Shown piece by piece: positions 5,843-26,201 of a stretch of 64,000 nt of DNA (its first letter is position 1; each line of letters begins with the position of its first letter). The stretch spans positions 4,960,001 through 5,024,000 of the forward strand of contig NZ_CP107796.1 of NCBI RefSeq assembly GCF_036345995.1. Direction: 5' to 3'. This DNA is from Streptomyces sp. NBC_00557. Lineage in GTDB: Bacteria; Actinomycetota; Actinomycetes; Streptomycetales; Streptomycetaceae. The position numbers were made by a program, and so were the translations under genes. The notes below the pieces were generated by a model. The model saw only the letters and a list, made by a program, of their open reading frames with translations, had not been told where the DNA came from and ran no database searches.

Positions 5843-7507
5843 TTACCTCAGCACGCTCGACAGCAGCTTCGCTGCCTTGCGGACGCGGGGGCGGGCGATC
5901 TTCTGGACGACCGGGCGGACCACGTGGGCGGTGACTCCCACCGGGCGCCAGCGGAGCTGCAGGCGGCCGGGGTTGCGGCCCTCGGGTTCGATGGTCAGCT
6001 CGTGCGGGGCCGCGCCGGAGCGGTACTCGATGCGGGCCGTGAGGACCGGGAAGGCCAGCGGGGCCAGCAGCAGACCGGAGTTGGACAGGCCCTGCTGCTG
6101 GAGCCGGACGAGGGGATGCCGTACGCCCGCGAAGCCCTGGAGGGGCAGCGGGGCCTCGGCGAGGTCCAGGCGGACCGTGCCCTCGAAGACGCCGGGGCTG
6201 ACCGGGTCCAGCCGGAAGGGGACCGTCATCCGGCGGTTGCCGGGGGAGAGGACCAGGCCGGCGCGCTGCGGGCCGACCGGGAGGCGCAGGCCGGGGTCGT
6301 AGGTGCGGACGGCGAGGGTGAGGGACGCCCCCGGCCCCGGCGTCAGCTCCGTGATCTCGTGCCGGAACAGCGCGCTCGGGAACGGGCGCGTGTCCAGCTC
6401 GAGGTCGGACACGGCCAGTTCACGCCGGGCGCGGTCGGTCGAGGGCACACTGTCGCCCCAGTACGGGACGCCGGACGCGTCGGAGGTGACCTGGCGCGGA
6501 GCGACCTCGTGGCCGAGTCCGCGGGCCGCGAGCCTGGTCTCCGCCAGCCGGCCCTGCCGCAGCAGTTCCAGGACGATCCGCTCCTGGCGGGGCAGACGGG
6601 TGTACGCGCCGTCGGACAGCGTCTCCAGGTACGGGTTCATGATGTCCGCGAAGGCCTGGAGCCACTCCTCGTCCCGGTAGGGCAGGTCACCCGCGTACAT
6701 CCGGAAGTCGTGCTTGAGGAACTTGTAGTCCTTGTCCTCCCGCAGCCCCGCGTGCCCGCTCTCGACCAGGAAGTCGTCGATCAGGCGCTGGACGTGGACG
6801 CGGTCGCGGACGTTGGTGACCTTGTGCCGCTGGTTGGAGATGGACGCCGAGGCGGCCGCCGCGAACGGGTCGATGTACCAGACGTACACCGGGTCCGGGA
6901 TGATCGTGAACGCCTCCGCCAGGCAGTAGGCCTGCGCCGAGAACAGCTGGTCCTCGTAGTGGATGCCCTCCGGGAAACGCAGCTGGTGGCGGTCCAGGAA
7001 GGAGCGGGCGTACATCTTGCTGGTGGAGAGGTGCTCGAAGAGCAGGCGGGGGTCCGCCTCGATGCCCTCCACGGTGCGGCGCTCGGCGACCAGGTGCGGC
7101 ATCCACGTCGTACGGCGGCCGTTGTCCACGCGGACGCGGCGTACCGCGCCCATGGTGAAGTCGACCTTGCGCTCGCGGTGCGCGGCGAGCAGCAACTCGA
7201 CCGCGCGGGGCGGGAGTTCGTCGTCGCTGTCGAGGAACATCAGATACGGGGCGCGGGCGATGTCGATGGCCCGGTTGCGCGGGGCGCTGCAGCCGCCGCT
7301 GTTCTCCGGCAGGCGGAGGTAGCGGATGCGGGGGTCCTCCGACTCCAGCCGGCGTGCCACCGCGGGCGTGTCGTCCGTGGAGTGGTCGTCGCTGATGATG
7401 ATCTCGATGTTCGCGTGCGTCTGCGCGCGCAGCGAGGCGACCGCCCGGGGCAGGCGGGCGGCGTCGTTGTAGACGATGACCGTCACCGTCACGTCGGGGG
7501 TCGTCAT
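5843..7507 (-). CDS. GT2 glycosyltransferase with long C-terminal extension
   Basis: 554 residues. The N-terminal 230 or so residues form a GT-A fold of family 2: VTVTVIVYNDAARL, the nucleotide-binding IIISDDHSTDDT, NSGGCSAPRNRAID, and the metal-binding LDSDDE. The following IHYEDQLFSA supplies the usual acidic acceptor-site residues. The C-terminal 300 residues hold no motif I know, but parts resemble the protein at 13634-15328. The enzyme should use a nucleotide-sugar in the cytoplasm to extend a surface polymer. Its ATG overlaps the TGA of the GT2-TagF gene upstream (ATGA), so the two are translationally coupled. The stop is TAA next to repeat copy A. Confidence 0.85.
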   Translation of the reverse strand: MTTPDVTVTVIVYNDAARLPRAVASLRAQTHANIEIIISDDHSTDDTPAVARRLESEDPRIRYLRLPENSGGCSAPRNRAIDIARAPYLMFLDSDDELPPRAVELLLAAHRERKVDFTMGAVRRVRVDNGRRTTWMPHLVAERRTVEGIEADPRLLFEHLSTSKMYARSFLDRHQLRFPEGIHYEDQLFSAQAYCLAEAFTIIPDPVYVWYIDPFAAAASASISNQRHKVTNVRDRVHVQRLIDDFLVESGHAGLREDKDYKFLKHDFRMYAGDLPYRDEEWLQAFADIMNPYLETLSDGAYTRLPRQERIVLELLRQGRLAETRLAARGLGHEVAPRQVTSDASGVPYWGDSVPSTDRARRELAVSDLELDTRPFPSALFRHEITELTPGPGASLTLAVRTYDPGLRLPVGPQRAGLVLSPGNRRMTVPFRLDPVSPGVFEGTVRLDLAEAPLPLQGFAGVRHPLVRLQQQGLSNSGLLLAPLAFPVLTARIEYRSGAAPHELTIEPEGRNPGRLQLRWRPVGVTAHVVRPVVQKIARPRVRKAAKLLSSVLR

Positions 7508-9711
7508 GCCGAGGCCTCCTCGGGGGTCGGGGCGGGGACGCGTTCCTCGAGCGGGACCACCGGTGGCAGCGACTCCTCCGGTTCGCCCAGGAACACCCGT
7601 CGTACGACCCGTTCGGCGGCGCGGCCGTCGTCGTACTCGCAGAACCGGCGCCGGAAGGCGGCCCGCGCCTTGGCCGCGGTCTCGTCGCGCCAGGCGCCGG
7701 AGGCGAAGATCTCCGTCAGCTCCTCCTGGGTGCGGGCGACCTGGCCGGGGTGGTCGGTCATGAGGTCGAAGTAGACGCCGCGGGTGGTGCGGTAGGTCTC
7801 CCAGTCGTCGGCGTAGATCACGATCGGGCGGTCGAGGTTGGCGTAGTCGAACATGATCGAGGAGTAGTCCGTGACCAGCGCGTCGGCGGCCAGGCACAGC
7901 TCCTCGACGGGGTCGTAGGAGGAGACGTCGATGATCCGGCCGGAGCGGCGCAGGCCGGTCAGCGGGGAGGCGGCGCCGCCGTAGAAGTAGTGGGCGCGCA
8001 CCAGCAGCACGGTGTCCTCGCCGAGCCGGTCGGCGAGGGCCGCGAGGTCCAGGCGCGGGGTGAAGCCGGCCTCGTAGTCGCGGTGGGTCGGGGCGTACAG
8101 GACGGCCGTCCTGCCCGGCGCGATGCCGAGGCGCCGGCGCGCGGCGCGGACCTCCTCGGCGCCGCTCGTGTAGAAGACGTCGTTGCGCGGATAGCCGTAG
8201 TCGAGGGAGGTGTAGCGGGCCGGGTAGGCGCGCTCCCACATGCGGGTGGTGTGGCTGTTGGCGCTGATGCTGTAGTCCCACTTGTCGATGCGGGCCAGCA
8301 GGGCGGCGAAGTCCAGGCCCTTGGCGGCGGCCGGGTGTTCCATCTGGTCCAGGCCCATGCGCTTGAGCGGGGTGCCGTGGTGGGTCTGGAGGTGGACCGC
8401 CCCGGGGCGTTTGACCACCGCGTTGGGGAAGTTGACGTTGTTCGTCAGGTACTTGGCGGTGGCCAGGGTCTCCCAGTAGCGGCGGGTGCCGGGGACCACG
8501 AAGTCGGTGCCGGGCGGCAGCAGGGCCGTGTTCTCCTTCGACACCGTCCACACCTGGTGGATGTGCGGGGCGAGTTCGGCGAGCTTGGCGGCGATCGCGG
8601 CCGGGTTGCAGGCCACCCCGCGGTCCCAGTAGGCGGCGAACACGGCCAGGTTCTCGTCGACCGGGCGGCTCAGGGCGCGCCGGTACTGCTGGTCGCGGAG
8701 CTTGGCGCCGACCTGCTTCTTGCGGGTCCGTACGGCCTTCTTGGCGGCGCGGCGGGTGCGGTTGGCGGCCTGGAACGCGCGGTACTTGGTGTACGCGCCC
8801 TCCTCCAGCAGGGCGTGCCGTACGCCCTCCACACCGGCCGGGCGCTCGTGGTTCTCGGGGCGCCAGCGGACCGCGGCGAGGGAGGCGCGGCGGAAGAACT
8901 CGCGGGCCACCGCGTCGGGCAGGTTCTCGCCGGCGAAGGTGCGTACGAGGTCGCGCATCATCAGGTCGTAGAGCACCGTGCGGGCGGCGCGGCGGTCCTT
9001 GGCGAGCGCGAGCAGCGACTCGTAGCGCTCGATCAGCGCGAAGCGGTCCTCGGGGGCGAGCGGCGGCAGGCTCTCGGGGCGCAGTTCACGGCTGTCGTAC
9101 GCCATCTGGTTGAGGCAGGCGACGCGGCCGGCGTGCAGCAGGGCGGCGTGGGCGGCCTGTGCTTCGTCGTCGGTGGTGAGCTGCTGTTCGTGGGCCCGCC
9201 AGAACGCGGCGCGCAGGGCGCGGTTGCCGAGGATCGGCCTGAGGCGCAGCAGGTCGGCGGCCTCGTCCAGGGGGCGGCTCTCGCGGCCGACGGCGGCGAG
9301 GAGGCGGCCGTCGCGGGAGGGGGTGCCGGCGGTCTGCCAGGTGGTGGTGACGTGGTCGAAGAGGAGGACGTCGGCGTCCTCGGCGCCGGCGGCGTCCAGT
9401 TCGGCGGTGCGCTCGGCGATCTGCCGGGTGGCGCCGGCCGGCAGGCCGTCCTTGGCGTGCACGAAGTGCAGCCAGCGGCCGGTGGCGCGGGCGGCGCCGG
9501 CGGCCCGGGCCGCCGCGTCCGAGGTGCCCTCCGGCAGCGGGACGACCACGGTCTCCGGGGCGTGGGCCTCGGCCGTCTCCCGCGCCCAGTCGCCGACCGC
9601 GGCGACGATGACCTCGGCGTCGGGCAGCGGCCGGGACTCCAGCGAGTCCAGCAACTCGGTCAGATGCCCCTGTGCGTTCGGTCCGTAGACGATGACGCTG
9701 AGTTGGGGCAT
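7504..9711 (-). CDS. GT2-like/TagF-type fusion (CDP-glycerol glycerophosphotransferase family) with degenerate GT2 half
   Basis: 735 residues from the ATG at 9711, chosen because GGAG lies 10 bases upstream; an in-frame ATG at 9753 would add 14 residues. The C-terminal half (about 370-720) matches the CDP-glycerol:polyglycerophosphate transferase family: THHGTPLK with His445, VLYAPTHRD, VRAHYFYGG and TDYSSIMFDYANLDRP. These are the family's usual catalytic and phosphate-binding motifs. The N-terminal 230 residues align with the GT2 domain of the sister proteins at 19396-26201 but lack both acidic motifs: where they have VDD and LDSDD this one reads VAAVGD and VHAKD (residues 84-88). The GT2 half is therefore probably inactive. 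It is second-last in a minus-strand cluster with the exporter. Confidence 0.85.
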   Translation of the reverse strand: MPQLSVIVYGPNAQGHLTELLDSLESRPLPDAEVIVAAVGDWARETAEAHAPETVVVPLPEGTSDAAARAAGAARATGRWLHFVHAKDGLPAGATRQIAERTAELDAAGAEDADVLLFDHVTTTWQTAGTPSRDGRLLAAVGRESRPLDEAADLLRLRPILGNRALRAAFWRAHEQQLTTDDEAQAAHAALLHAGRVACLNQMAYDSRELRPESLPPLAPEDRFALIERYESLLALAKDRRAARTVLYDLMMRDLVRTFAGENLPDAVAREFFRRASLAAVRWRPENHERPAGVEGVRHALLEEGAYTKYRAFQAANRTRRAAKKAVRTRKKQVGAKLRDQQYRRALSRPVDENLAVFAAYWDRGVACNPAAIAAKLAELAPHIHQVWTVSKENTALLPPGTDFVVPGTRRYWETLATAKYLTNNVNFPNAVVKRPGAVHLQTHHGTPLKRMGLDQMEHPAAAKGLDFAALLARIDKWDYSISANSHTTRMWERAYPARYTSLDYGYPRNDVFYTSGAEEVRAARRRLGIAPGRTAVLYAPTHRDYEAGFTPRLDLAALADRLGEDTVLLVRAHYFYGGAASPLTGLRRSGRIIDVSSYDPVEELCLAADALVTDYSSIMFDYANLDRPIVIYADDWETYRTTRGVYFDLMTDHPGQVARTQEELTEIFASGAWRDETAAKARAAFRRRFCEYDDGRAAERVVRRVFLGEPEESLPPVVPLEERVPAPTPEEASA

Positions 9712-9859
9712 CGCAGTGGACTCCTTCGGCTCGTCGGCGTGAACACCCTTCATAACATACTGTCACTAAGCGGATGAAAGGGATAACCGTACGCGGAGTA
9801 AGAGACGCCCCGGAAGGAAGAGGCGGTTCCGTAGCCCGGGGTTTCCTCTCCGGCCGCCT
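9712..9859 (-). promoter_or_regulatory. Gap with possible internal promoter for the GT genes
   Basis: 148-bp spacer between the exporter ATPase and the GT2-TagF gene. On the minus strand it holds the AT-rich hexamer TATGTT (9749-9754) about 40 bases upstream of the ATG at 9711, a plausible -10. An imperfect GC-rich inverted repeat at 9818-9856 could terminate the exporter transcript. Neither site is certain. Confidence 0.3.
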
Positions 9860-10690
9860 TTACGCCGCCTTCTTACCCTTGCCGCCGGGCTTCTTGTCGC
9901 TCTTGTCGCCGGTGAAGGCCTCGTACTCCTTCATGACCTCCTCGGTCGGCCCGTCCATGCGCAGCTCGCCGCGCTCCAGCCACAGGACCCGCTCGCAGGT
10001 GTCGCGGATCGACTTGTTGTTGTGGCTGACCAGGAAGACCGTGCCCGCGCGCTCGCGCAGTTCGCGGATCCGTTCCTCGGAGCGCATCTGGAACCGGCGG
10101 TCACCGGTGGCCAGGGCCTCGTCGATGAGCAGGACGTCGTGGTCCTTGGCGGCGGCGATGGAGAACCGCAGCCGGGCGGCCATGCCGGAGGAGTACGTGC
10201 GCATCGGCAGGGTGATGAAGTCGCCCTTCTCGTTGATCCCGGAGAAGTCGACGATGTCCTGGTAGCGCTCCTTGACCTGCTCCCGGGACATGCCCATGGC
10301 GAGGCCGCCGAGGTAGACGTTCCGTTCACCCGTGAGGTCGTTCATCAGGGCGGCGTTGACGCCGAGCAGCGAGGGCTGGCCATTGGTGTAGATGTGGCCG
10401 TTCTCCACGGGGAGCAGTCCGGCGACGGCCTTCAGCAGCGTCGACTTGCCGGAGCCGTTGGTGCCGATGAGGCCGATCGCCTCGCCCTTGTAGGCAATGA
10501 AGGACACGTTCTTCACCGCGTGCACCCTGCGCACGCCGGCCGCCTTCTCGGTCTGCTTGCGGCGCAGGATGCGGTTGAGGGCGGCGGTGGCGGAGCCGCG
10601 GCCCGCGCCGGTGCCGTTGACGCGGTAGACGATGTCGACGCCGTCGCAGATGACGGTGGGGATCTTCTCGGTGGGGGTCTGCTCAGCCAC
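9860..10690 (-). CDS. ABC transporter ATP-binding protein, TagH/Wzt type polysaccharide exporter
   Basis: 276 residues from a GTG that overlaps the permease stop codon by 8 bases. Walker A GTNGSGKST is at 76-84, the signature is SSGMAARL as in TagH and Wzt, and Walker B/D-loop is LLIDEALATGD followed by the switch His in LVSHNNKS. The C-terminus ends in a short Lys-rich tail and lacks the carbohydrate-binding domain of O-antigen Wzt proteins, which favours a teichoic-acid type (TagH) role. With the permease it should export a completed lipid-linked glycopolymer across the membrane. Confidence 0.9.
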   Translation of the reverse strand: MAEQTPTEKIPTVICDGVDIVYRVNGTGAGRGSATAALNRILRRKQTEKAAGVRRVHAVKNVSFIAYKGEAIGLIGTNGSGKSTLLKAVAGLLPVENGHIYTNGQPSLLGVNAALMNDLTGERNVYLGGLAMGMSREQVKERYQDIVDFSGINEKGDFITLPMRTYSSGMAARLRFSIAAAKDHDVLLIDEALATGDRRFQMRSEERIRELRERAGTVFLVSHNNKSIRDTCERVLWLERGELRMDGPTEEVMKEYEAFTGDKSDKKPGGKGKKAA

Positions 10691-11597
10691 GGCCGTACTT
10701 CTCCTCAGCCTTCCAGAAGTAGATGAAGCCTCCGACGCCGGCGAGCAGGGCCCAGCCGGTGGCCGTGGCCCACACGTGCGGGGGGAGCTGCCTGGCGTGG
10801 AAGCTCTTGATCAGCGCGTAGCGCATGAGGTCGATGTAGACCGCGGCCGGGTTGTTCTCCAGCAGGATCGTGACGATGTGCGGCAGGTGGTCCTTCTTGG
10901 TGAGCTTGCTGATGCTCCACATCACGCCGGACACGTACATCCAGGTGCGCAGCACGAACGGCATCAGCTGGGCGATGTCCGGGGTCTTGGCGCCCATCCG
11001 CGCCATGATCATCGCCATGCCCGCGTTGAACAGGAACTGCAGGACCAGCACGGGGATCACCAGCAGCCAGCCGGGGGTGACCGGCAGGCCGAAGCCCAGC
11101 AGGATGACGACCAGCGCGGCCATCGAGAACAGCAGTTGCTGGAGCTGCTGGATGCAGAAGGAGATCGGCAGGGCGGCGCGCGGGAAGTGCAGGGCACGCA
11201 CCAGACCGAGGTTGCCGGAGATCGCCCGGGTGCCCACCTGGATCGAGCTCTGCGTGAACGTCCACACGAACACGCCGGTGACCAGGAAGGGGATGTAGTC
11301 CGGGACGCCCTTCTTGGTGCCGAGCAGCACGCCGAAGATGAAGTAGTAGACCGCCGCGTTCAGCAGCGGGGTCATGACCTGCCAGATCTGGCCGAGCTTC
11401 GCCTGGCTGTACTGCGCGGTGAGCTTGGCGGTGGCGAAGGCGGTGATGAAGTGCCGCCGGGCCCACAGCTGGCGGACGTACTCCGGCAGGGTCGGGCGGG
11501 CGCCGCTGACCGACAGGCCGTGCCGGGCGGCGAGCGCCGCGAGATCGTCGTCGGCCGGGGCCCGGGTGGGGGGCGGTGTGTCGAGGACCTGGCTCAC
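10683..11597 (-). CDS. ABC-2 type permease, TagG/Wzm polysaccharide exporter
   Basis: 304 residues if started at the GTG at 11597; the frame stays open upstream to 11765, but that stretch is Arg/Pro-rich and unlike the family, so the short form is preferred. No good ribosome site was seen at any start. About six hydrophobic helices lie after the amphipathic RRHFITAFATAKLTAQYSQAKLG segment typical of ABC-2 exporters, which is followed by GQIWQVMTPLLNAAVYYFIF. It pairs with the overlapping ATPase. It is divergent from a TetR gene 200 bp away, the likely local regulator. Confidence 0.88.
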   Translation of the reverse strand: MSQVLDTPPPTRAPADDDLAALAARHGLSVSGARPTLPEYVRQLWARRHFITAFATAKLTAQYSQAKLGQIWQVMTPLLNAAVYYFIFGVLLGTKKGVPDYIPFLVTGVFVWTFTQSSIQVGTRAISGNLGLVRALHFPRAALPISFCIQQLQQLLFSMAALVVILLGFGLPVTPGWLLVIPVLVLQFLFNAGMAMIMARMGAKTPDIAQLMPFVLRTWMYVSGVMWSISKLTKKDHLPHIVTILLENNPAAVYIDLMRYALIKSFHARQLPPHVWATATGWALLAGVGGFIYFWKAEEKYGRG

Positions 11598-11717
11598 ATC
11601 CGCTGCTTTCGCTCGGGGGGAGGGGATGCCGCGGCCCGGCCGGCAGCCGGGGCGCTCGGTCACGTGGTCCGGCGTTTCCTTGCGCTTCTCTTCACGTTCT
11701 CTTACGTCGGGACGGGA

Positions 11718-11781
11718 CCGTATCGTCGCAACGCGAGCGTAGAACCAATCGACGTCGGAACGCAACCGTTTCGTCGTAACG
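11718..11781. promoter_or_regulatory. Two direct repeats, candidate TetR operators
   Basis: ACCGTATCGTCGCAACG (11718-11734) and ACCGTTTCGTCGTAACG (11765-11781) match at 15 of 17 positions and are 47 bp apart. Each contains a CGTT/AACG-like inverted core. The second copy abuts the TATGCT hexamer of the tetR promoter. Autoregulation and control of the divergent exporter genes is inferred. Confidence 0.5.
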
Positions 11782-11784
11782 CCC

Positions 11785-11790
11785 TATGCT
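11785..11790 (+). promoter_or_regulatory. -10 hexamer of a leaderless tetR promoter
   Basis: TATGCT ends 6 bases before the ATG at 11797, the spacing expected if transcription begins at the start codon. There is no ribosome-binding site before the ATG, and no clear -35 was seen. Confidence 0.45.
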
Positions 11791-11796
11791 GGGGTC

Positions 11797-12423
11797 ATGA
11801 CGACGAACGCCGACGAGCCCTCGACGCGTCCGCGCCGCCGGACGCCCGCCGGGGCCGCCGTACTCCGGGAGGACGTGACCGAGGCCATCCGGGCGGCGGT
11901 CTTCGAAGAGCTCGCGGCCGTGGGCTACGCCCGCATGTCCATCGAGGGCATCGCGCGGCGGGCCGGCGTCGGCAAGACCGCGGTGTACCGGCGCTGGCGT
12001 TCCAAGCTGCACCTGGTGCTGGACGTCGTCTCGGCCATGGCGGTGCTGGGCCTGCCGGTGCCCGAGACGGGCTCCCTCGAGGGCGATCTGCGCCTGCTGT
12101 ACGAGGTCACCTCGCGCGCCCTGCGCCATCCGGTCGCCTCGCAGATCATCCCCGACCTCCAGGCGGAGGCGGCCCGCAACCCCGACATCGCCGACGCCTT
12201 CCAGAAGGCCCTGCGGGACGGCCAGGAGGGTGTGGCCAGCAAGATCGTGGCGGCGGCGGAGGAGAGGGGCGAGCTCCGCGCGGGCGTCGACCCCGACCTC
12301 GCCCTCGACCTGATCTCCGGACCCCTGTACTGGCGCGCGGTGGTGATCCGCACCCCGAAACTCCCGAAGGGCTACCTGGCCGACCTGGCCCGCGCGACGG
12401 CGGGGGCGCTCAAGGCGCTGTGA
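11797..12423 (+). CDS. TetR family transcriptional regulator
   Basis: 208 residues. The N-terminal helix-turn-helix (about 28-72) includes GYARMSIEGIARRAGVGKTA followed by VYRRWRSK, a standard TetR recognition helix. The C-terminal domain (about 80-205) is helical and of the kind that binds small ligands. It is transcribed away from the exporter operon with two 17-bp repeats between them, so it probably represses itself and perhaps the exporter. The ligand is unknown. A hairpin terminator follows at 12432-12466. Confidence 0.9.
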   Translation: MTTNADEPSTRPRRRTPAGAAVLREDVTEAIRAAVFEELAAVGYARMSIEGIARRAGVGKTAVYRRWRSKLHLVLDVVSAMAVLGLPVPETGSLEGDLRLLYEVTSRALRHPVASQIIPDLQAEAARNPDIADAFQKALRDGQEGVASKIVAAAEERGELRAGVDPDLALDLISGPLYWRAVVIRTPKLPKGYLADLARATAGALKAL

Positions 12424-12510: not shown

Positions 12511-13491
12511 CTAGGCCCGTGCTGCCTCCGGGTGGTGGTGTACCCAGCCGGCCCAGGCCGAAGTGATCATGTCCTCGACGTCGTACTTGGCCTGCCAGCC
12601 CAGTTCCGTGGCGATGCGGGCCGCCGAGGCGACCACGCGCGCCGGGTCGCCGGGGCGGCGCGGGGCGACGGCCGGCGGGCGGGCGTAGCCGGTGAGCGCG
12701 TTGATGCGGTCGATCATCTCGCGGACCGACACGCCCTCGCCGCGGCCGATGTTGAGGGTCAGGTCGGCGCCGGGGGAGGAAGCCAGGGCGCGGGCGACGG
12801 TGACATGGGCCTCGGCCAGGTCGACCACGTGGATGTAGTCGCGCACACAGGTGCCGTCCGGCGTCGGGTAGTCGTCGCCGAAGATCCGCGGTGACGCGCC
12901 CTCGGTGAGCTTCTCGAAGACCATCGGGACGAGGTTGAACACGCCGGTGTCGGCGAGTTCGGGGGCGGCCGCGCCCGCCACGTTGAAGTAGCGCAGGGAC
13001 GCCGTGGACAGGCCGGTGGCCCGGCCCGTCGCGCGCACCAGCCACTCGCCGGCCAGCTTGGTCTCGCCGTAGGGGGACAGGGGCCGGCAGGGGGTCTCCT
13101 CCGTCACCAGGTCGACGTCCGGCATGCCGTACACGGCGGCCGACGACGAGAAGACGAAGGAGGGGACCTCCGCCCGCGTCACCTCCTCCAGGAGGGTGCG
13201 CAGACCCTCGACGTTCTCCCGGTAGTACTCCAGCGGGCGCTCCACCGACTCCCCGACCTGCTTCTTCGCCGCCAGGTGCACGACCCCGCTGATCTCGTGC
13301 TCCGCGAGTGTGCGGGCCACCCGGTCCGCGTCCAGCACGGAGCCCCGCACCAGCGGGACCTCCGCCGGCACGCGCCTGGCGTCGCCCGTGGACAGGTCGT
13401 CGTAGACGACCGCGCGCTCGCCCGCCTCGGTCATCGCCCGTACGACGTGTGCCCCGATGTATCCGGCACCGCCGGTGATCAGCCAGGTCAT
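12511..13491 (-). CDS. galE: UDP-glucose 4-epimerase
   Basis: 326-residue extended short-chain dehydrogenase that interconverts UDP-glucose and UDP-galactose (or the N-acetyl forms) with bound NAD. The NAD-binding loop is GGAGYIGAH (7-15), the catalytic serine lies in FVFSSSAAVYG, and the catalytic pair is Tyr141 and Lys145 in SPYGETK. RDYIHVVDLAEAH and the C-terminal RRPGDPA are typical GalE segments. Within a cluster of glycosyltransferases it most likely supplies UDP-galactose or UDP-GalNAc for the glycopolymer, though a role in galactose catabolism cannot be excluded. The GT2 gene upstream is 142 bases away in the same direction. Confidence 0.93.
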   Translation of the reverse strand: MTWLITGGAGYIGAHVVRAMTEAGERAVVYDDLSTGDARRVPAEVPLVRGSVLDADRVARTLAEHEISGVVHLAAKKQVGESVERPLEYYRENVEGLRTLLEEVTRAEVPSFVFSSSAAVYGMPDVDLVTEETPCRPLSPYGETKLAGEWLVRATGRATGLSTASLRYFNVAGAAAPELADTGVFNLVPMVFEKLTEGASPRIFGDDYPTPDGTCVRDYIHVVDLAEAHVTVARALASSPGADLTLNIGRGEGVSVREMIDRINALTGYARPPAVAPRRPGDPARVVASAARIATELGWQAKYDVEDMITSAWAGWVHHHPEAARA

Positions 13492-13633: not shown

Positions 13634-15328
13634 TCAGTGAAGCAGGCGGCGCAGCCGGCCGCGCACCACCCGCAGTACCCCGCGCACGCCGGTCGCCACG
13701 CGAATCGCCAGCGCGCCGGAGTGCGTGGCGTACGGCTGCACCAGGAGCACGCCGTGCCGGGCGCTCGGGACGGCGCGCCGGGCCAGCCGGCCGGCGCCCG
13801 TCAGCGCGTGCGCCGTGACGTCCCGCTGCGCGCCGTCCGCGAAGCGCAGGGTCAGCCGCAGGTCCCAGGTGCCGGCGCCGAGCGCGGCCAGGTCGACGGG
13901 CAGCTCGGCCGTCCAGCTGTCCGCGGCGCCTTTCACACCGGATTCCGAACTGCTGGGCGTGTCGCCGCGGGTGCCGGAGGGCGTGAGCGGGACCGTCGTA
14001 CGCCCCCGCGTCCGCTCGTCGTCCCGGGACTGCCACGCCACGTCCACCTCGCGCGGGCCGGCCTCGGCGACCCTGCCGTACAGCTCGTGCAGCCGCAGGC
14101 GCAGCAGCGAGGCACGCGCGCGTGGCCGCAGTTCCGCGTCGACTGCGAGCGGGAGGACACCGATGGGGCGGGTCAGGAACGGCGCGAGGGTGACCTGGGG
14201 AAGATCGGCGGACCAGACGGGGACGCCGTCGGGAGTGCGGGCGTAGGGCGGCAGCAGCCGCGCCGGGCGGGCGGCCAGCTCGCGCAGCCGGGGCAGGTCG
14301 CGCGGCTCCGGCGACTCCATGACGACCCGCGCCAGCACCCGGCCCGGAGCGCTCGGGTTCAGCTCCCAGTCGGTGGCGTCGTAGCGCGCGAGGTACTCGC
14401 GGGTGTGCGTCCACCACGCGCGCCGGTAGTCCGCGTCGCGCAATCCCAGCTCGCGCGCGTACATGCGCACCTCGTGATCGAGGAACTTGGCCCGCGCCGC
14501 CCTGGCCAGCTCCTTCTGACCGGCGCCCAGCAGGATGTCGTATGCCAGCGCGCACGCCTCCACGCGCGCCTTCCAGTTGTCTATGTGCTCCCGGTTCAGC
14601 GAGAGCGACAGCTGCTCGGCGGAGCGGCGCACGTGCCACACGTACACACGGTCCGGTACGAGCGCGATGCGCGGGCCGGCGGCCAGCACGCGCGCGGTGA
14701 AGACGATGTCCTCGTAGAGGAAGCGGCCCTCGGGGAAGCGGATGCCGTGCTCGCGCAGGAAGCCGGTCCGGTACAGCTTGTTGACGCACAGCGTGTCGTG
14801 GACCAGGCTCGGGCGCTGGGCGGGGCGGGCGAGCACGGTGCGCGCCGTGTAGAGGGGCGCCTGCCAGGGTTGTTCACGCCCCGAGGGCAGCTCCCGGCGC
14901 ACGCACAGCCCGCTCGCGACCTCGGCGTGCGCCCCGGTGGCCGCCGCCAGCAGCGCGTCCACCGCACCGGGCGGCAGCACGTCGTCGCTGTCCAGGAACA
15001 TCACGTACGGCGCGGTCACCGCGGCGATCCCGGCGTTGCGCGGGCTGCCGCAGCCGCCGCTGTTCACGTCCAGGCGCACCACCCGCAGCCGGGGCTCCTC
15101 GGCGGCCAGCCGGCCGAGCAGCTCGGCGCTGCCGTCCGTGGAGCAGTCGTCCACGGCGACGACCTCCGCGACCGCCGGCCCCTGCGCCAGCGCCGAACGC
15201 ACGGCGTCGCCGACATGGGTACGGTCGTTGTAGCCGATGACGACCACGGCGACCTGCGCCGTGCGCGCCGCCTCGGCGGTACCTGCCGTATCGGGTGTGT
15301 CGTTCGCGTCTGATCGCATCGGGTCCAC
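13634..15328 (-). CDS. GT2 glycosyltransferase with long C-terminal extension (paralogue of 5843-7507)
   Basis: 564 residues from the GTG at 15328; an in-frame ATG at 15319 is the alternative. No ribosome site is present, but TACGCT lies 8 bases before the GTG, which suggests a leaderless message. The GT-A domain (about 25-240) has VVVIGYND, VVAVDDCSTDGS, NSGGCGSPRNAGI, MFLDSDD and the acceptor-side FLYEDIVF. It shares NSGGC, the WH/WYI region and the layout of its C-terminal half with the protein at 5843-7507, so the two are paralogues that probably add different sugars or linkages. Its acidic motifs are complete, so it should be active. Confidence 0.87.
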   Translation of the reverse strand: MDPMRSDANDTPDTAGTAEAARTAQVAVVVIGYNDRTHVGDAVRSALAQGPAVAEVVAVDDCSTDGSAELLGRLAAEEPRLRVVRLDVNSGGCGSPRNAGIAAVTAPYVMFLDSDDVLPPGAVDALLAAATGAHAEVASGLCVRRELPSGREQPWQAPLYTARTVLARPAQRPSLVHDTLCVNKLYRTGFLREHGIRFPEGRFLYEDIVFTARVLAAGPRIALVPDRVYVWHVRRSAEQLSLSLNREHIDNWKARVEACALAYDILLGAGQKELARAARAKFLDHEVRMYARELGLRDADYRRAWWTHTREYLARYDATDWELNPSAPGRVLARVVMESPEPRDLPRLRELAARPARLLPPYARTPDGVPVWSADLPQVTLAPFLTRPIGVLPLAVDAELRPRARASLLRLRLHELYGRVAEAGPREVDVAWQSRDDERTRGRTTVPLTPSGTRGDTPSSSESGVKGAADSWTAELPVDLAALGAGTWDLRLTLRFADGAQRDVTAHALTGAGRLARRAVPSARHGVLLVQPYATHSGALAIRVATGVRGVLRVVRGRLRRLLH

Positions 15329-16632: not shown

Positions 16633-16728
16633 CGCACGGGAGCCTAAGCGGCACGGATCGCATATCCCCGCTGATACGCCGTCAGAAGCGTAAAACATTG
16701 GCTAATCGCAAGAGATCGGGCGGGCGCT

Positions 16729-19395: not shown

Positions 19396-21603
19396 CTATG
19401 CCGAGGCCAGCGTGTCCCGGCCGGCCTGCTGCCCCGGAATCCGTACCGCGCCCGGTCCGGTCAGCGGCTCACCCAGCAGCAGCGTCCGTACGACCCGCTC
19501 GGCGGCCCGGCCGTCGTCGAACTCGCAGAACCGGGACCGGAACACCGCCCGCAGCCGCGCCGACTCCTCGTCCCGCCAGGCCCCCGAGGCGAACAGCCGG
19601 ACCAGCTCCCGGTAGGAGCGCGAGACGTGGCCCGGCGGCTCGGCCGTGATGTCGAAGTAGGCACCCCGGCTCGCCGCGTACGCGGGCCAGTCGTCGGCGT
19701 GCACCACGATCGGCCGGTCCAGGTTGGCGTAGTCGAACATCACGGCCGAGTAGTCGGTGACCAGCACGTCCGCCGCGAGCATGACCTCCTCCGCGCGCGG
19801 CTCGTCGGTCGCGTCGACGACGATCCCGCGCCGGGACAGCTCCGCCAGTCCCATCCCGCGCGCGGGGCCCGCCGCCAGCGACGGATGCAGCCGCACCACC
19901 AGCGTGTGCCCCTCGCCCAGATCGGCCGCGAACCGGGCCAGGTCGATCCGGTCGACATGCCCGAGACGGCGGTAGTCCCGCCGGGTCGGCGCGTACAGCA
20001 CCACCGTGTCCGTCTCCGGGATGCCGTACCGTCGCCGGAAGTCGCTGTCGCCGCCGTTCACCAGCACGTCGTTGCGCGGGCTGCCCGTGCGCACCGAGGT
20101 GAAGTGGCAGGGGTAGGCCCGCTCCCAGACCAGCTCGGAGTGGCGGTTGGCGACCAGGCTGTAGTCCCACCGGTCGGCCCGGCGCAGCATCTGCGGCACG
20201 TCGAAGCCGAGCCGGGCCCCCGGCTTGTCCAGCAGATCGGCGCCCATGTACTTCAGCGGGGTGCCCTGGTGGGTCTGGATGTGCACGCTGCCGGGCCGCT
20301 TGACCAGCGTGCCCGGCCAGTTGACGTCGTTGACGAAGAACGCCGCCCGTGAGGTGACCTCCAGATAGCGCCGGGAGCCCACGATCACGTGCTCCACACC
20401 GGACGGCAGCAGCGCGGCGGTCTCCTCGTCCCGCACCACCCACACCCCGCGCAGCTGCGGGGCGATCCGGCGGGCCTTGGCGTACACGGCGGCCGGGTCG
20501 CCGAGCATGCCCCGGTGCGAGGACGCCGAGTAGACGACCAGGTCCGGATCGAGCGGGCGGCGCGCGTGCAGGCCGGCCCAGCCGGAGCGGGCCCGCGCGG
20601 CCGCCGCGCCCCGGGCCAGCCCGGCCAGCCGGGCCGCCTCCGCGCCGGCCCGCGCCGCCCGCCGCCTGATCCGGTATCCCGTCCAGGAGCCCTCCAGCAG
20701 GCCCACCTCGCCGTCGGCCAGGGCGCCCTCGGGCCGGTACGCGCGGAACTTCTCCGCCGTACGCCGGAAGAACTCGGCCTTGTCGGCGGGCGGCAGCCGG
20801 TCCGGCTTGGCCAGGATGTCCAGGCAGTGCTCGCCCATCTTGCGGTGCAGGTACGGCCGCCAGTGCGCCAGCTCGGGGTGCCGCTGAAGGAACGCGAAAA
20901 CCCGGTCGTACTGGTCGTGGATGTCGAAGTGCTTGCGGCTGGTGGTGGACAGGATGTTGCCCTGCCGGCGCTGCCGGTAGTTCACGCAGATCCGGTCCAG
21001 CGTGGCGATCCGGCCGGCGCTGAGCATGACCGGGAAGGTCCACGGGGTGTCCTCGTAGTAGCCCGGCGGGAACGCGAAGCCCTCCGCCTCGACGAACTCG
21101 CGCCGGTAGACCTTGTTCCACACCACCATCAGCAGGTCCAGGATCCGCGGGAACTCGTCCGCGGTGAAGGTGCCCGGGCCGGCCTCGGCGAGCACCTCGG
21201 CCAGGGCGTTGCGCCGGGTGCCGCCCCACCAGTAGGTGCGGGCGTAGTCGAAGACCAGCACGTCCGGGTCCCCGGCCTCCTCGAGACGGTCGGCCATCGC
21301 CTGCAGCGCGCCCGGGGTGAGGGTGTCGTCGCTGTCCAGGAAGAACAGGTAGTCGCCGGTGGCGTGCGGCATCCCGGCGTTGCGGGCGCGGCCGAGGCCC
21401 ACGTTCTCCGGCAGGTGCAGCACCTTCACCCGGGGGTCGCGCCCGGCGTACTCGTCGAGGATGGCGCCGCAGCCGTCCGGGGAGCGGTCGTCCACGGCGA
21501 TCAGCTCGAAGTCGTTGAAGGACTGCAGCAGCACCGAGTCCAGGCACTCGCGCAGAAAGCCCTGCACCTTGAAACAGGGCACGATCAGACTGAAGCGGGG
21601 CAC
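19396..21603 (-). CDS. GT2-TagF fusion glycopolymer synthase; TagF half lacks first catalytic His
   Basis: 735 residues. The GT2 domain (1-230) is complete: FSLIVPCFKVQGFL, LIAVDDRSPDGC, VGLGRARNAGM, FFLDSDDTL and YYEDTPWTFP. A helical linker (about 230-350) follows. The TagF-like half (about 355-715) has IQTHQGTPLK, where the family's catalytic His is replaced by Gln446, then VLYAPTRRD, VVRLHPSLAAG (second His kept) and TDYSAVMFDYANLDRP. One active GT2 site and an impaired or altered glycerophosphotransferase site are inferred. It starts 6 bases after the stop of the next sister gene, so the two are one transcription unit. Confidence 0.85.
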   Translation of the reverse strand: MPRFSLIVPCFKVQGFLRECLDSVLLQSFNDFELIAVDDRSPDGCGAILDEYAGRDPRVKVLHLPENVGLGRARNAGMPHATGDYLFFLDSDDTLTPGALQAMADRLEEAGDPDVLVFDYARTYWWGGTRRNALAEVLAEAGPGTFTADEFPRILDLLMVVWNKVYRREFVEAEGFAFPPGYYEDTPWTFPVMLSAGRIATLDRICVNYRQRRQGNILSTTSRKHFDIHDQYDRVFAFLQRHPELAHWRPYLHRKMGEHCLDILAKPDRLPPADKAEFFRRTAEKFRAYRPEGALADGEVGLLEGSWTGYRIRRRAARAGAEAARLAGLARGAAAARARSGWAGLHARRPLDPDLVVYSASSHRGMLGDPAAVYAKARRIAPQLRGVWVVRDEETAALLPSGVEHVIVGSRRYLEVTSRAAFFVNDVNWPGTLVKRPGSVHIQTHQGTPLKYMGADLLDKPGARLGFDVPQMLRRADRWDYSLVANRHSELVWERAYPCHFTSVRTGSPRNDVLVNGGDSDFRRRYGIPETDTVVLYAPTRRDYRRLGHVDRIDLARFAADLGEGHTLVVRLHPSLAAGPARGMGLAELSRRGIVVDATDEPRAEEVMLAADVLVTDYSAVMFDYANLDRPIVVHADDWPAYAASRGAYFDITAEPPGHVSRSYRELVRLFASGAWRDEESARLRAVFRSRFCEFDDGRAAERVVRTLLLGEPLTGPGAVRIPGQQAGRDTLASA

Positions 21604-21609: not shown

Positions 21610-23811
21610 TCAGCTCCTCACGAGGGTCGCGGCGGCGGGGGCGGGGACGCGCTGCGCGAGCGGCACCACCGGTGCGATGGCCTCGGGCGGCTCCCCGAGC
21701 AGCACCCGCCGTACCACCCGCTCGGCGGCCAGGCCGTCGTCGAACTCGCAGAACCGCTCCCGGAACGCGGCCCGCAGCGCCGCGGCGTCCGCGCCCGCGT
21801 ACGAGCCGTCGCGGAAGACGGCGGCCAGCTCCTCGGGGGTGCGCGCGACCGGCCCGGGCGGCTCGGCCGTCAGATCGAAGTAGACGCCCCGGGTCTCCCG
21901 GTAGACGTCCCAGTCGTCGGCGTACACGACGATCGGCCGGTCCAGGTTGGCGTAGTCGAACATGATCGAGGAGTAGTCGGTGACCAGCGCGTCCGCCGCC
22001 AGGCACACGTCCTCCGAGGAGCGGTGCGCGGTGACGTCGATGACCCGGCCGGAACTCGCCGCGGACCCCCGGTCGTAGAAGTAGTGGGCGCGCAGCAGCA
22101 CGACGACGTCCTCGCCGGCCGCCGCGCAGAAGGCCTCCAGGTCGAGGCCGGGCTCGAAGCCGGTGTGGTGGTCGCGGTGGGTGGGCGCGTACAGGACGGC
22201 CGTCGCGCCCTCGGGCACCCCCAGCTCCCGCCGGATGCGGGCCACGTCCTCGGCGCTCGCCGTGTAGTAGACGTCGTTGCGCGGATAGCCGTACTCCAGC
22301 GCCTCCCAGGAGCCGGGGAAGGCGCGCTCCCACATCTGCGTGGAGTGCCGGTTGGCGGAGAGGTTGAAGTCCCAGCGGTCGACGCGGCCGAGCAGCCGGG
22401 TGTAGCTGCCCGACTGCGCCGCCACCACCGGATACGGCGACTGGTCCACGCCCATCGTCTTCAGCGGGGTGCCGTGCTGGGTCTGCAGATGCACGCTGCC
22501 GGGGCGCTTGACGATCCCCTCGGCGAAGTTGGCATTGTTGACCAGGTACTTGGCGCGGGCCAGCACCTCCCAGTAGCGGCGCGAGCCGATCACCGCGTAC
22601 TCCACGTCCTTCGGCATCGCGTGCTCCTGGCCGGGCTCCACCAGGAACACCGAGCGGATGTGCGGGGCGAGTTCCCGGGCCTTGGCGTGGATCGCGGCCG
22701 GGTTGCAGGTGTAGCCGCGGCCCCAGTAGGCGCAGTACACGGCCAGGTTCTCGTCGAGGGGGCGGCGCAGGTCGCGGGCGTAGCGCAGCCGGGTGCGCAC
22801 CGCGCGCGGGCGGGGCAGGCCCTCGGAAGCGTGCACTGCCACCCGGTTGGCACCGCGCAGCGCCCGGAACGCGCTGTAGGCGCCGGCCGCCAGCAGCCGG
22901 TGCTGCACGCCCAGGCTGCCGCCCGGCGCCCGGTAACCGGCCGGCCGGTGACGCCGGTAGAGACGGGCGGCCCGGCGGAAGAACGCCCGGTGCCCGGACG
23001 GCAGCCGCTCCGGCCGGGACGCCGTCTTCAGCACCTGGCCGAACAGCTGCTCGAAGAGTGCGCGCGTCCGCTCGGCGGGCAGTTTCCGCTCGGCGGCCCG
23101 CGTCAGCACCAGGTCCACCTGGTCGAGCAGTTCGTGCTGGTGCGGCCCCGGCAGATTGAGCCGGCTGCCCTGCCGGCGCAGCCGGTGCCGTACGACGACC
23201 CGGCGCAGCACCGCGATCCGCCCGGCCGCGAGCGTCGTCAGCCCGCCCCAGCCCAGGTCGGTGAAGTGACTGTCGGGAAAGGCGAGTTCCCGCTCGGTGA
23301 GAAAGGCACGGCGGTACACCGCGCTCCACGCCGGGAGCTGCACGCCGGTCAGCTCCGGCAGGTCGGCCGGGGCGAAGGCGCCCTCGGGGGCGCGGGCGAA
23401 CAGCGGTGCCGCCGGGTTCGTCGGCTCGCCCTCCCACCAGGGGGCGCGCTCGTGCTCGACGTAGAGCACGTCCACGTCGGCGGTCTCGGCCAGCCGGGCG
23501 TCCAGCGCCGCGAGCGCGCCCGGCAGCAGCAGGTCGTCGCCGTCGAGGAACAGCACATACACGCCGGTCGCCGCCCGGATCCCCGCGTTGCGCGCCCCGC
23601 CCAGACCGGCGGACGGCGGCGAGTGGACCGCGGTCACCCGGGAGTCCCGCGCCGCGAAGCCGGCGGCCACCTCGGCGGCCGGGGCGTCGGGGCCGTCGCA
23701 GACCGGGATCAGCTGCAGATCGCCGAAGGACTGGCCGAGAACCGAGTCCAGCGCCTGGGACAGCCGGCCGGCGACCCCGTGGGACGGGACGATGATGCTG
23801 AAGCGGGGCAT
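21610..23811 (-). CDS. GT2-TagF fusion glycopolymer synthase, both halves intact
   Basis: 733 residues from the ATG at 23811, which follows the ribosome site AAAGGA. The GT2 domain has FSIIVPSHGVAG, GLGGARNAGI and LFLDGDDLL, though the first acidic motif is weakly kept (LIPVCDGPDA). The TagF half has LQTQHGTPLK with His446, VLYAPTHRD, LRAHYFYDRG and TDYSSIMFDYANLDRP, all conserved. This is the only one of the four fusions that keeps the DXD and both TagF histidines. It could alternate sugar and glycerol-phosphate addition in one polypeptide, as do some teichoic-acid and capsule polymerases. The donor of the second half is inferred from family only; no CDP-glycerol synthase is nearby. Confidence 0.85.
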   Translation of the reverse strand: MPRFSIIVPSHGVAGRLSQALDSVLGQSFGDLQLIPVCDGPDAPAAEVAAGFAARDSRVTAVHSPPSAGLGGARNAGIRAATGVYVLFLDGDDLLLPGALAALDARLAETADVDVLYVEHERAPWWEGEPTNPAAPLFARAPEGAFAPADLPELTGVQLPAWSAVYRRAFLTERELAFPDSHFTDLGWGGLTTLAAGRIAVLRRVVVRHRLRRQGSRLNLPGPHQHELLDQVDLVLTRAAERKLPAERTRALFEQLFGQVLKTASRPERLPSGHRAFFRRAARLYRRHRPAGYRAPGGSLGVQHRLLAAGAYSAFRALRGANRVAVHASEGLPRPRAVRTRLRYARDLRRPLDENLAVYCAYWGRGYTCNPAAIHAKARELAPHIRSVFLVEPGQEHAMPKDVEYAVIGSRRYWEVLARAKYLVNNANFAEGIVKRPGSVHLQTQHGTPLKTMGVDQSPYPVVAAQSGSYTRLLGRVDRWDFNLSANRHSTQMWERAFPGSWEALEYGYPRNDVYYTASAEDVARIRRELGVPEGATAVLYAPTHRDHHTGFEPGLDLEAFCAAAGEDVVVLLRAHYFYDRGSAASSGRVIDVTAHRSSEDVCLAADALVTDYSSIMFDYANLDRPIVVYADDWDVYRETRGVYFDLTAEPPGPVARTPEELAAVFRDGSYAGADAAALRAAFRERFCEFDDGLAAERVVRRVLLGEPPEAIAPVVPLAQRVPAPAAATLVRS

Positions 23812-23963
23812 GCTGTCCTTTCTGTCGTCTTGCGGACGCGCATCCTGCGGACGGGACCTGTCGCCCGTCCGGGCCGCCCCGCCGGGCGGCGGACGGGCGG
23901 CCGGCTCGGGACGGGCCGGGTCGAGCCGAGGAGCGCGCGAACTCCCGGAAGGGCCAACGCCGT
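23812..23963 (-). other. 152-bp GC-rich spacer between two fusion genes
   Basis: It contains several overlapping G/C inverted repeats (for example around 23870-23912) and an AAAGGA ribosome site at its left end. No gene or clear promoter was recognised. Confidence 0.3.
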
Positions 23964-26201
23964 TCAGCACCCCTCGGTGACGGTCAGGGCACCGGAAGGT
24001 TGCGGCACGGTGGCCGGCGGTGACCCGGCGCAGGCCGACGGCACCGGCTTGCGCTCGGCGAGCGGGATCACCGGCAGCGGCTCCGTCTCGCCCAGCACCA
24101 CATGCCGTACGACCCGCTCGGCGGCGCGTCCGTCGTCGTGGGGGCAGAACCGCTCCCGGAACACCGCCCGCAGCTGGGCCGAGCGCGAGCCGCGCCATTG
24201 GCCGGTCGCGAAGATGTCGATCAGCTCGTCCTCGCTGTGCCCGACCGCGCCCGGCGGGAAGGCGGGCAGGTCGACGTAGGCGCCGCTGGCCGCCCGGTAC
24301 ACCTCCCAGTCGCCGGTGTGCACCACGATCGGCCGGTCCAGACCCGCGTAGTCGAACATGATCGGGTGGTAGTCGGTGAGCAGGGCGTCCGAGGCCAGGC
24401 ACAGGGCCTGCACGCTCGGGTGGTCGCGGACGTCGATGATCCGGGGGCCCTCGGGGCACCGCTCGCCGTGGGTGCGGGCCAGGATCACGAAGCGGGGGCC
24501 GAGCCGGCGCGCGATCCGCTCCAGGTCCAGCGGCGGGCGCTGGGTGCGCACATGGTCCCGGCGGGCCGGCGCGTACAGGACCGCGACCGCGCCCGGCGGG
24601 ACACCGAGCGACTCGCGCAGCCGGGTCACGTCCGCCGACGTGGCCCGCTGGAACACGTCGTTGCGCGGCGAGCCGTACTCCAGCGTGCGGTACCGGCCCG
24701 GGAAGACCCGCTCCCAGACGAGCGTCGCGTGCCGGTTGCCGGACAGTACGACGTCCCACTGGTCCACGCCGCGCAGCAGCCCGGCGAAGTCGGTGCCGCG
24801 GGCCGCCGCCGGGCGCTCCTGCAGGTCCAGGCCCGTGTGCCCCAGCGGCGTGCCCTGCTGGGCCCGGACCAGGATCTGCCCGCGCCGCTTGCGCAGCCCC
24901 GTCTCCAGGACGTCGTCGGTGACCAGGTACTTGGCGCGGGCCAGCGCCGTCCAGCAGGCGGCAGTGCCGGGGCGCAGCCGGCGCGGGCCGGGCGGCACCG
25001 TGTGCTCGTGCTCGGGGCGGGCGATCCAGGCGGTGCGGATGTGCGGGGCGTGGGTGCGGAACGCCTCCTCCAGGGCGCCCGGGTCGCCGCCGTGGCCCCG
25101 GCCCGCGCCCGAGGCGAACACCGCCCGGTCGGCGCGGACGGGCAGCCGCAGCTGGATCCGGTAGTGCAGCCGCAGCACACCGGTGCGCAGGGCGCGGGCC
25201 AGCCGCACCGCCGCCTTCAGCGTGCGCCGGCGCACGGCCGAGGCCAGCCGGAGGGCGCGGAACGTGCGGTGCAGACCGAAGCGGACCAGGATGTTCCGGC
25301 GCCGCATCCGGGCGCCGGGGGCATGATGGCGGCGGTAGTGGGCGCGGGCCCGGCGCAGGAACTCGCCGTGGCTGCCGCGCGGCAGCCGGCCCCTCCTGGT
25401 GAACACCGTCGCGTAGTGGTCGATCATGCGGCGGAACAACTCCGGGCGCCAGCAGGACAGTTCCGGACGCGCGTCGACGTAGGCGAACACCCGGTCGTAC
25501 TGCTCGAAGAGGTCGAAGTGCCTGCGGCTGGTGGTGCCGAGGATGTTGCCCTGCCGGCGCTGCCGGTAGTGCACGCACACCCGGTCCAGGGTGGCGATCG
25601 ACTCCGCCGCCATCAGCACCGGGAACGTCCACGGGGTGTCCTCGTAGTAGCCCGGCGGGAAGGCGAAGCCGTGGCGTTCGACGAACTCCCGCCGGCAGGC
25701 CTTGTTCCAGGCCACCATCAGCAGCCGCAGCAGTTCCGGCCGGTCCCGCAGGCGGAAGGGCGCCGGGCCCTGCTCGGTCAGCGGGCCGGTGAGCTGGTTG
25801 CGCACCGACCGGCCGTCCCAGTACGTGCGCGCGTAGTCGTACACCAGCACGTCCGGCTCGCCGGACTCCTTGATCCGGTCGGCGATCGCGCGCAGCGCGC
25901 CCGGGGCGAGCGTGTCGTCGCTGTCCAGGAAGAGCAGATAGTCACCGGTCGCCTGGGCGATGCCCGCGTTCCTGGCCCGGCCGAGCCCCTGGTTCTCGGC
26001 CAGGTGCACGGGCCGCACGCGCGCGTCGCGGGCCGCGTACTCCTCGATGATCTCCCCGCAGGCGTCCGGCGAGCAGTCGTCCACGGCGATCAGTTCCAGA
26101 TCGGGGTACGACTGCGTCAGCACCGAGTCCAGGCACTCGGAGAGATACGCCTGGACCTTGTACGCGGGGACAATGACACTGAACCTGGGCAAGGCGGGCA
26201 T
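23964..26201 (-). CDS. GT2-TagF fusion with strongly diverged TagF half
   Basis: 745 residues. The GT2 domain (about 5-235) is intact: FSVIVPAYKVQAYL, LIAVDDCSPDACG, QGLGRARNAGI, LFLDSDDTL and YYEDTPWTFP, very like the protein at 19396-21603. The linker is unusually basic. In the TagF half the motif reads RAQQGTPLGHTG (Gln449 for the catalytic His and loss of the following Lys), the second motif is VLYAPARRD, and the phosphate-binding site is TDYHPIMFDYAGLDRP instead of TDYSS. The second His in LARTHGER remains. The GT2 half is probably active while the C-terminal half may have lost or changed its activity. It is first in the minus-strand group and follows a terminator at 26315-26342. Confidence 0.85.
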   Translation of the reverse strand: MPALPRFSVIVPAYKVQAYLSECLDSVLTQSYPDLELIAVDDCSPDACGEIIEEYAARDARVRPVHLAENQGLGRARNAGIAQATGDYLLFLDSDDTLAPGALRAIADRIKESGEPDVLVYDYARTYWDGRSVRNQLTGPLTEQGPAPFRLRDRPELLRLLMVAWNKACRREFVERHGFAFPPGYYEDTPWTFPVLMAAESIATLDRVCVHYRQRRQGNILGTTSRRHFDLFEQYDRVFAYVDARPELSCWRPELFRRMIDHYATVFTRRGRLPRGSHGEFLRRARAHYRRHHAPGARMRRRNILVRFGLHRTFRALRLASAVRRRTLKAAVRLARALRTGVLRLHYRIQLRLPVRADRAVFASGAGRGHGGDPGALEEAFRTHAPHIRTAWIARPEHEHTVPPGPRRLRPGTAACWTALARAKYLVTDDVLETGLRKRRGQILVRAQQGTPLGHTGLDLQERPAAARGTDFAGLLRGVDQWDVVLSGNRHATLVWERVFPGRYRTLEYGSPRNDVFQRATSADVTRLRESLGVPPGAVAVLYAPARRDHVRTQRPPLDLERIARRLGPRFVILARTHGERCPEGPRIIDVRDHPSVQALCLASDALLTDYHPIMFDYAGLDRPIVVHTGDWEVYRAASGAYVDLPAFPPGAVGHSEDELIDIFATGQWRGSRSAQLRAVFRERFCPHDDGRAAERVVRHVVLGETEPLPVIPLAERKPVPSACAGSPPATVPQPSGALTVTEGC

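Follow-up and report, generated by a model that had tools for sequence, protein, structure and literature searches.

Complementary active-site differences among four GT2-TagF fusion proteins of a Streptomyces wall-teichoic-acid-type locus

Why should one bacterial locus encode four versions of what is, in the case of Staphylococcus epidermidis TagF (3L7I), a single polymerase protein? The question is raised by a 64,000-nucleotide stretch of DNA from Streptomyces sp. NBC_00557 (genome size 9.0 Mb; positions 4,960,001–5,024,000 of its main contig), hereafter referred to as the window. Between its positions 5843 and 26201 lie the genes for four fusion proteins, here called TagFA, TagFB, TagFC and TagFD, in which a family 2 glycosyltransferase (GT2) head is followed by a TagF (phosphotransfer) head. 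Their TagF domains (PF04464) score 321–447 bits against a curated cut-off of 22.1, and this domain is scarce in the genome; four of its five matches are in the window, and a sixth, divergent one (32.6 bits) was found in a protein outside the locus. With these TagF-type polymerases and a TagGH-type exporter, the locus is a Streptomyces wall teichoic acid (WTA)-type locus, of a known kind and with a partly known function. What is new, and in our judgment non-trivial, is that the four copies have asymmetric active sites that differ in a complementary and testable manner. We consider it probable that polymerisation is shared among these paralogous proteins, the TagF head of TagFD decaying after the arrival of TagFA and GT2x1, a glycosyltransferase encoded next to it.

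Catalytic positions were taken from an alignment with the S. epidermidis TagF structures (3L7I; variants 3L7J and 3L7M), with H444 and H584 as the reference sites. These two histidines are exactly where the variants depart from the wild-type chain (H444N and H584A; the title of 3L7M reads H548A, and the chain numbering in the alignment gives 584), and H-to-A mutants of the capsule polymerases Cps1B and Cps7D produced no polymer (PMC5974469). For these reasons we take H444 and H584 as catalytic. TagF sequences shorter than 330 amino acids were excluded from the scoring of alignment rows, and one copy was scored per paralogue and genome (genome G055 has two TagFD-like copies). Both histidines are present in TagFA and TagFC of the window, and H444 is missing from TagFB and TagFD. 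None of TagFA, TagFB and TagFD has the two intact heads that characterize a bifunctional GT-A/TagF-like polymerase; TagFC keeps its TagF site and the GT2 DxD motif, with CDGP as the first GT2 motif.

Homologues of the four proteins were scored in the same way. All 80 named orthologues of TagFA have H444, H584, the lysine and the Ser-Ser pair of the TagF site intact, while the GT2 DxD motif is lost in 78 and gapped in the other two; the GT2 match of the window protein itself is weak (18 bits, Pfam). TagFC has H444 in 45 of 46 rows, together with a degenerate first GT2 motif. For TagFB and TagFD, the best 120 of 3274 and the best 120 of 3161 homologues, respectively, were compared, in sets dominated by near relatives of the window, and DxD is present in every member of both. 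At positions 443–444, TagFB has His-Gln in 119 of the 120 and His-Arg in the remaining one. H444 of TagFB is likewise absent in 42 of 43 genomes with TagFC (the 45 TagFB rows include G028 and G147, which are 44–45% relatives and not true TagFB). By contrast with their invariant DxD, the best TagFD homologues keep H444 in 46 of 120 and the full TagF site in 41 of 120; among the 74 without H444, 25 still have the lysine and 49 still have H584. In the genome sample, every one of the 70 TagFD sequences that reach the GT2 DxD has it intact. Judged by these residues, the TagF site of TagFD is eroding. The database name 'bifunctional glycosyltransferase/CDP-glycerol glycerophosphotransferase' may mislead for many TagFB and TagFD homologues.

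The erosion of TagFD tracks TagFA. We scored 75 TagFD sequences (74 genomes and the window) out of 124 matching genomes. Of the 30 that come from genomes with TagFA, 5 have kept H444, versus 39 of the 45 from genomes without it (Fisher p = 1.2e-9). Restricted to genomes that also have TagFC, the figures were 5 of 29 versus 15 of 16 (p = 6e-7; G056 counts as TagFC-positive through a 37% match only). Genomes with neither TagFA nor TagFC kept H444 in 24 of 29 cases, which suggests a two-headed ancestor of TagFD. On a TagFD GT2-domain tree of 70 leaves (5 sequences had no GT2 part), a model in which the rate of H444 loss depends on TagFA was better in an asymptotic likelihood test (rates 9.7 with and 0.35 without TagFA; ratio 11.7, p = 0.0006). 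Recoding G005, whose TagFA-like gene is divergent (40% identity), as TagFA-bearing gave rates of 8.2 and 0.35 (ratio 9.6, p = 0.002); this genome was treated as negative in the Fisher, first tree and divergence tests and as positive in the recoded tree and in the co-occurrence described below. Four TagFA genomes (G087, G088, G097 and G133) lie outside the TagFD set. Under parsimony, the tree requires H444 to change 9 times and TagFA presence to change 10 times. In the TagFA group, nine different residues stand in place of the lost histidine, which suggests several independent losses. The divergence of the TagFD TagF domain relative to that of TagFC was 1.48 with TagFA versus 0.79 without (the pairs are not independent).

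TagFA does not occur without its neighbour in the genomes compared. Searches with the TagFA N-terminal part and with GT2x1 identified the same 35 of 150 genomes, comprising 34 clear pairs (TagFA at least 53% and GT2x1 at least 69% identical) and the divergent G005 (40% and 61%); the two genes are adjacent in 34 of the 35 and on different contigs in G015. G081 and G139 match the TagFA query at 31–32% and were not scored as having TagFA, and the GT2x1 threshold was 61% (next best 48%), both limits having been set after the lists were viewed. At least 11 genomes (G006, G010, G019, G022, G030, G034, G036, G037, G040, G046 and G047) have a GT2x1-like part (40–41% identity) and PF04464 in one frame of 961–1068 codons, a Rosetta-stone link which supports the notion that GT2x1 and TagFA act together. 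The preliminary description of this DNA had left the C-terminal domain of GT2x1 and its paralogue GT2x2 as unknown; it can now be named as TarS/RmlT-like. The closest solved relative of GT2x1 is TarP (82 bits), and its structure model (predicted local distance difference test score 83) matched RmlT (E 2.1e-24) and TarS (E 2.5e-23) in Foldseek over about 550–590 columns, with an overall root-mean-square deviation of about 12–13. The whole-length model would thus have the GT-A domain and linker shared with TarS, RmlT and TarP, followed by a C-terminal beta-rich domain like that of TarS and RmlT, although identity to these proteins is only about 15–23%. In structure models, the closest folds of the GT2 heads are also WTA glycosyltransferases.

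We propose that, in the cytoplasm, the polymer would be built up on a lipid-linked linkage unit, with TagFA and TagFC contributing the TagF head, TagFB and TagFD contributing the GT2 head, and GT2x1 acting as the partner of TagFA. It would then be exported by TagGH under the control of TagR and attached to peptidoglycan by ligases encoded outside the locus. TagFD would once have had two working heads, of which the TagF head became dispensable, and decayed, where TagFA and GT2x1 were present. The predicted activities recall published experiments in which GT-A/TagF capsule polymerases were inactive if either head was mutated, and mixing two single-head mutants restored activity (PMC5974469). Cps1B, Ccs2, Cps12B and CslB resemble the window fusions in having a GT-A head followed by a TagF head, and Cps1B single-head mutants complement in trans; unlike the window set, each is one intact two-headed protein, with a TPR domain in most, of a Gram-negative capsule. 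In the literature covered, such complementation involves engineered mutants, and the window may offer a natural case. More generally, we suggest tentatively, regarding the case as nearly balanced, that in Streptomyces one two-headed polymerase was replaced by a team of one-head paralogues working in trans, and that the arrival of a copy with only a TagF head, together with a TarS-like partner, more than once freed the ancestral phosphotransferase head to decay while the glycosyl head remained under selection.

Several observations weigh against this division of labour. DxD is kept in 41 of 46 TagFC rows, and the GT2 head of TagFC may therefore work. The TagF site of TagFB is steady, with the lysine, H584 and His443 in 120 of the 120 best homologues, and may be active through a shifted base. 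The association of TagFD with TagFA has exceptions in both directions: H444 is kept despite TagFA in 5 of 30 genomes (G031, G056, G077, G094, in which the lysine is lost, and G096) and lost without TagFA in 6 of 45 (G006, G053, G103, G108, G118 and G149). The tree, moreover, is a gene tree made from part of TagFD itself. Our initial view was that the TagF head of TagFB is dead, and we withdrew it because the site is strictly conserved; the site is held in a non-canonical form, which might reflect a change of chemistry and not a loss. TagFB might even be a specialised enzyme, for example a primer or terminator, using the His of its HQ in place of the canonical QH. Its near-invariance would fit this idea, but in published work the catalytic residue is the one that precedes Gly, and the argument comes from residue patterns; we regard the idea as unlikely. 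Plain redundancy, in which four WTA polymerase copies have surplus heads that decay without cooperation in trans and TagFC (and TagFA) alone make the polymer, predicts the diversity of the substitutions at TagFD H444 (Q, R, E, P, D and T) and agrees with the retention of H444 in TagFC. The GT2 heads nevertheless seem to be under selection, since TagFB and TagFD hold their DxD while their TagF sites change and all four reading frames have no internal stop in this genome. We judge simple redundancy improbable and prefer shared polymerisation.

What the polymer would be made of depends on its donors. The preliminary description had noted that no CDP-glycerol synthase, TagO-like or LCP gene lies inside the locus, which agrees with the absence of PF00953, LCP and CTP_transf_like matches among the 18 window proteins scanned. 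Its supposition that these enzymes come from elsewhere holds for a TagO-type transferase (PF00953, three matches in the genome) and gains no support for the CDP-glycerol synthase, as searches of the genome turned up no TagD-like gene: of three PF01467 genes, one is HldE-like and the other two were judged from place and size to be NadD and CoaD. The TagD model passed its cut-off in none of the 150 genomes. A TagA-type gene lies outside the locus; this sole PF03808 (TagA/WecG-type) gene found in the genome is part of a polysaccharide cluster (L101:2515–11979). A TarIJ-type CDP-ribitol synthase was found in a separate locus (ribitol-5-phosphate cytidylyltransferase model NF001183, 167.7 bits, cut-off 166). 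That second wall-polymer locus (L099:9815–15106; G000:C1:5427814–5433105) encodes the TarIJ fusion, a 707-amino-acid protein that matches PF04464 weakly, and a TarS-linker GT2. TarIJ is present in 17 of 35 TagFA genomes (absent from 18) and 27 of 45 TagFC genomes, and G020, G021 and G032 have TarIJ with no PF04464 match at E 0.001; this patchy co-occurrence weakens CDP-ribitol from TarIJ as an obligatory donor. Fifteen of the 45 TagFC genomes lack both a TarIJ fusion and any TagD-like match of at least 50 bits, and show a single IspD-type gene above 100 bits (the controls G008, G031 and G096 also show the fusion). The locus thus seems independent of a recognisable CDP-ribitol or CDP-glycerol supply.

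This donor-gene pattern favours a sugar-phosphate polymer, and the TarS/RmlT-type GT2 heads favour a glycosylated polyol phosphate. In a poly(oligosaccharide phosphate), perhaps the described polydiglycosylphosphate, the GT2 head would add hexose and the TagF head hexose-1-phosphate. GalE in the locus would suit such a product, but other CDP-polyol synthases were possibly missed and the closest folds of the GT2 heads point to WTA. GT2 enzymes are inverting. The published GT-A-TagF capsule polymerases do make sugar-phosphate polymers, but beta-linked ones (PMC5974469), and the S. coelicolor polymer has alpha-Gal (PMC7831098); we find this chemistry rather unlikely. The analogy with B. subtilis GgaB, whose domain content is presumed here, had pointed to polydiglycosylphosphate as the product, and the alpha linkage of the described polymer argues against it. 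In the alternative, TagF heads would polymerise polyol phosphate, and the GT2 heads, GT2x1 and GT2x2, all resembling TarS, TarP and RmlT, would decorate it. TarIJ in this genome and the ribitol-phosphate WTA in walls of S. griseus and S. antibioticus (PMC13274773) speak for a polyol phosphate. TarIJ, however, sits in another locus with TagF-like and TarS-like genes of its own and is missing from half of the TagFA genomes in the way described, and no TagD-like gene was found; we consider this product possible while leaning slightly against it. There may be an unassigned wall phosphopolymer in many species.

The preliminary description had called the locus uncharacterised and its set of genes one with no assigned product in Streptomyces. 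This is incorrect, as the literature ties the same gene types to WTA and to a tagG-tagH-tagR system. SCO2981, SCO2982, SCO2983, SCO2997, SCO2589, SCO2590 and SCO2592 are listed as WTA glycosyltransferases of S. coelicolor (PMC3937824, which cites Kleinschnitz 2011 for the TagF homologue SCO2997), the first four being TagF homologues. In S. roseosporus, TagR, a TetR protein encoded divergently from tagGH, is a negative regulator of the WTA exporter, and tagG deletion causes sporulation and plasmolysis phenotypes that B. subtilis tagG complements (PMC10269677). S. coelicolor walls contain teichulosonic acid and minor polydiglycosylphosphate (PMC7831098), and its tagO could not be deleted (PMC7300013). 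The window shares these gene types, including the TetR gene divergent from tagGH, and differs in the head asymmetry seen among its polymerases; no description of such asymmetry among GT2-TagF paralogues was found in the excerpts searched, subscription papers including Kleinschnitz 2011 being outside the search. Our analysis thus names catalytic heads worth testing in a type of locus tied to Streptomyces sporulation and osmotic tolerance. The 80 named TagFA loci, kept from 164, are all from Streptomyces except one titled 'Actinobacteria bacterium'; S. coelicolor is absent from them, and the likeness to the SCO genes is by gene type. We infer from gene content, and from a neighbouring dehydrogenase that we presume to flank both, that the window is the counterpart of the SCO2981–SCO2998 region.

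The locus was compared in 20 stretches from 15 other genomes, some of which end early. TagFC and TagFB were present in 15 of 15 and TagFD in 14; TagG and TagH accompanied TagFB and TagFC in 13, the stretches of G022 and G038 ending before that place. The TetR gene (missing from G060) and the PMT_2-type gene were each found in 12. All 9 of the other genomes that have TagFA also have GT2x2, as does one (G038) of the 5 genomes without TagFA that could be judged. Among stretches reaching that far, the dehydrogenase occurred in 4 genomes and a sugar ABC permease in 6. The gene families support a wall phosphopolymer that would be made in the cytoplasm, exported by TagGH and glycosylated. The TetR gene is divergent from tagGH, and a TagR-like role is predicted from this position. 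Between tagG and tagR lies a candidate operator, the inverted repeat TTCGTCGT-N22-ACGACGAA, whose right arm overlaps the tagR start codon. The pattern occurred in 0 of 100 shuffles. Among 184 loci, of which many do not extend over this site and some overlap, 37 gave a match; the exact pattern was missing from 8 of 13 stretches checked.

Table 1. Features of the locus, by position in the window
Feature	Position	Strand	Basis
GT2x1: GT2 head and TarS/RmlT-like C-terminal beta-rich domain, 554 amino acids	5843..7507	-	Pfam, closest solved relative, structure model
TagFA: GT2-TagF (PF04464) fusion; TagF site preserved, GT2 head without DxD and DDxS (lost)	7504..9753	-	Pfam, alignment, model
TagH-type ABC ATPase	9860..10690	-	Pfam; top NCBIfam TagH NF010066, 185 bits (cut-off 320, not reached)
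TagG-type ABC permease, start uncertain (up to 11765)	10683..11663	-	PF01061 (ABC2); top NCBIfam galactan exporter permease, 69 bits (cut-off 380, not reached)
Operator-like inverted repeat, tagG-tagR intergenic	11770..11807	.	Pattern search and shuffles
TetR regulator, TagR-like by position	11797..12423	+	Pfam; arrangement as in PMC10269677
GalE-type UDP-sugar 4-epimerase	12511..13491	-	Pfam
GT2x2: TarS-like GT2 with C-terminal region	13634..15328	-	Pfam, solved-relative comparison
GT87-type membrane glycosyltransferase	15364..16698	-	Pfam
PMT_2-type membrane glycosyltransferase	16729..18381	+	Pfam, NCBIfam
TagFB: GT2 motifs preserved; Gln at the position of the TagF catalytic His, preceded directly by a His	19396..21603	-	Pfam, alignment
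TagFC: TagF site intact; first GT2 motif degenerate (CDGP), DxD kept	21610..23811	-	Pfam, alignment
TagFD: GT2 motifs intact; TagF site apparently eroded (Q in place of H444, G of the Lys, H of the Ser)	23964..26201	-	Pfam, alignment

Domains were assigned by a Pfam scan of 18 window proteins, with NCBIfam added for some. All the genes noted earlier in 5843–26201 are there, with high third-position GC in the coding frame, and small corrections sufficed: the open reading frames 5843–8551 and 21610–25632 were real as genes, with ends now placed at 7507 and 23811. MarR and OsmC genes at 18329–19337, unrelated-looking, lie within the locus and recur in 14 of the 15 other genomes; we take them to be possibly an OhrR/Ohr-type peroxide pair. 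Outside the locus, the gene at 249–3560 encodes a NAD-glutamate dehydrogenase. For the GtrA/GT-C pair noted earlier as lying just outside, the check covered one protein, the membrane-type product of 4080–5705, which has no Pfam match; in 8 other genomes, relatives of it (37–39% identity) lie in the interval from tagFB to the OsmC gene. A tRNA-Arg predicted by ARAGORN at 20533–20618, inside the TagFB coding frame, is probably false.

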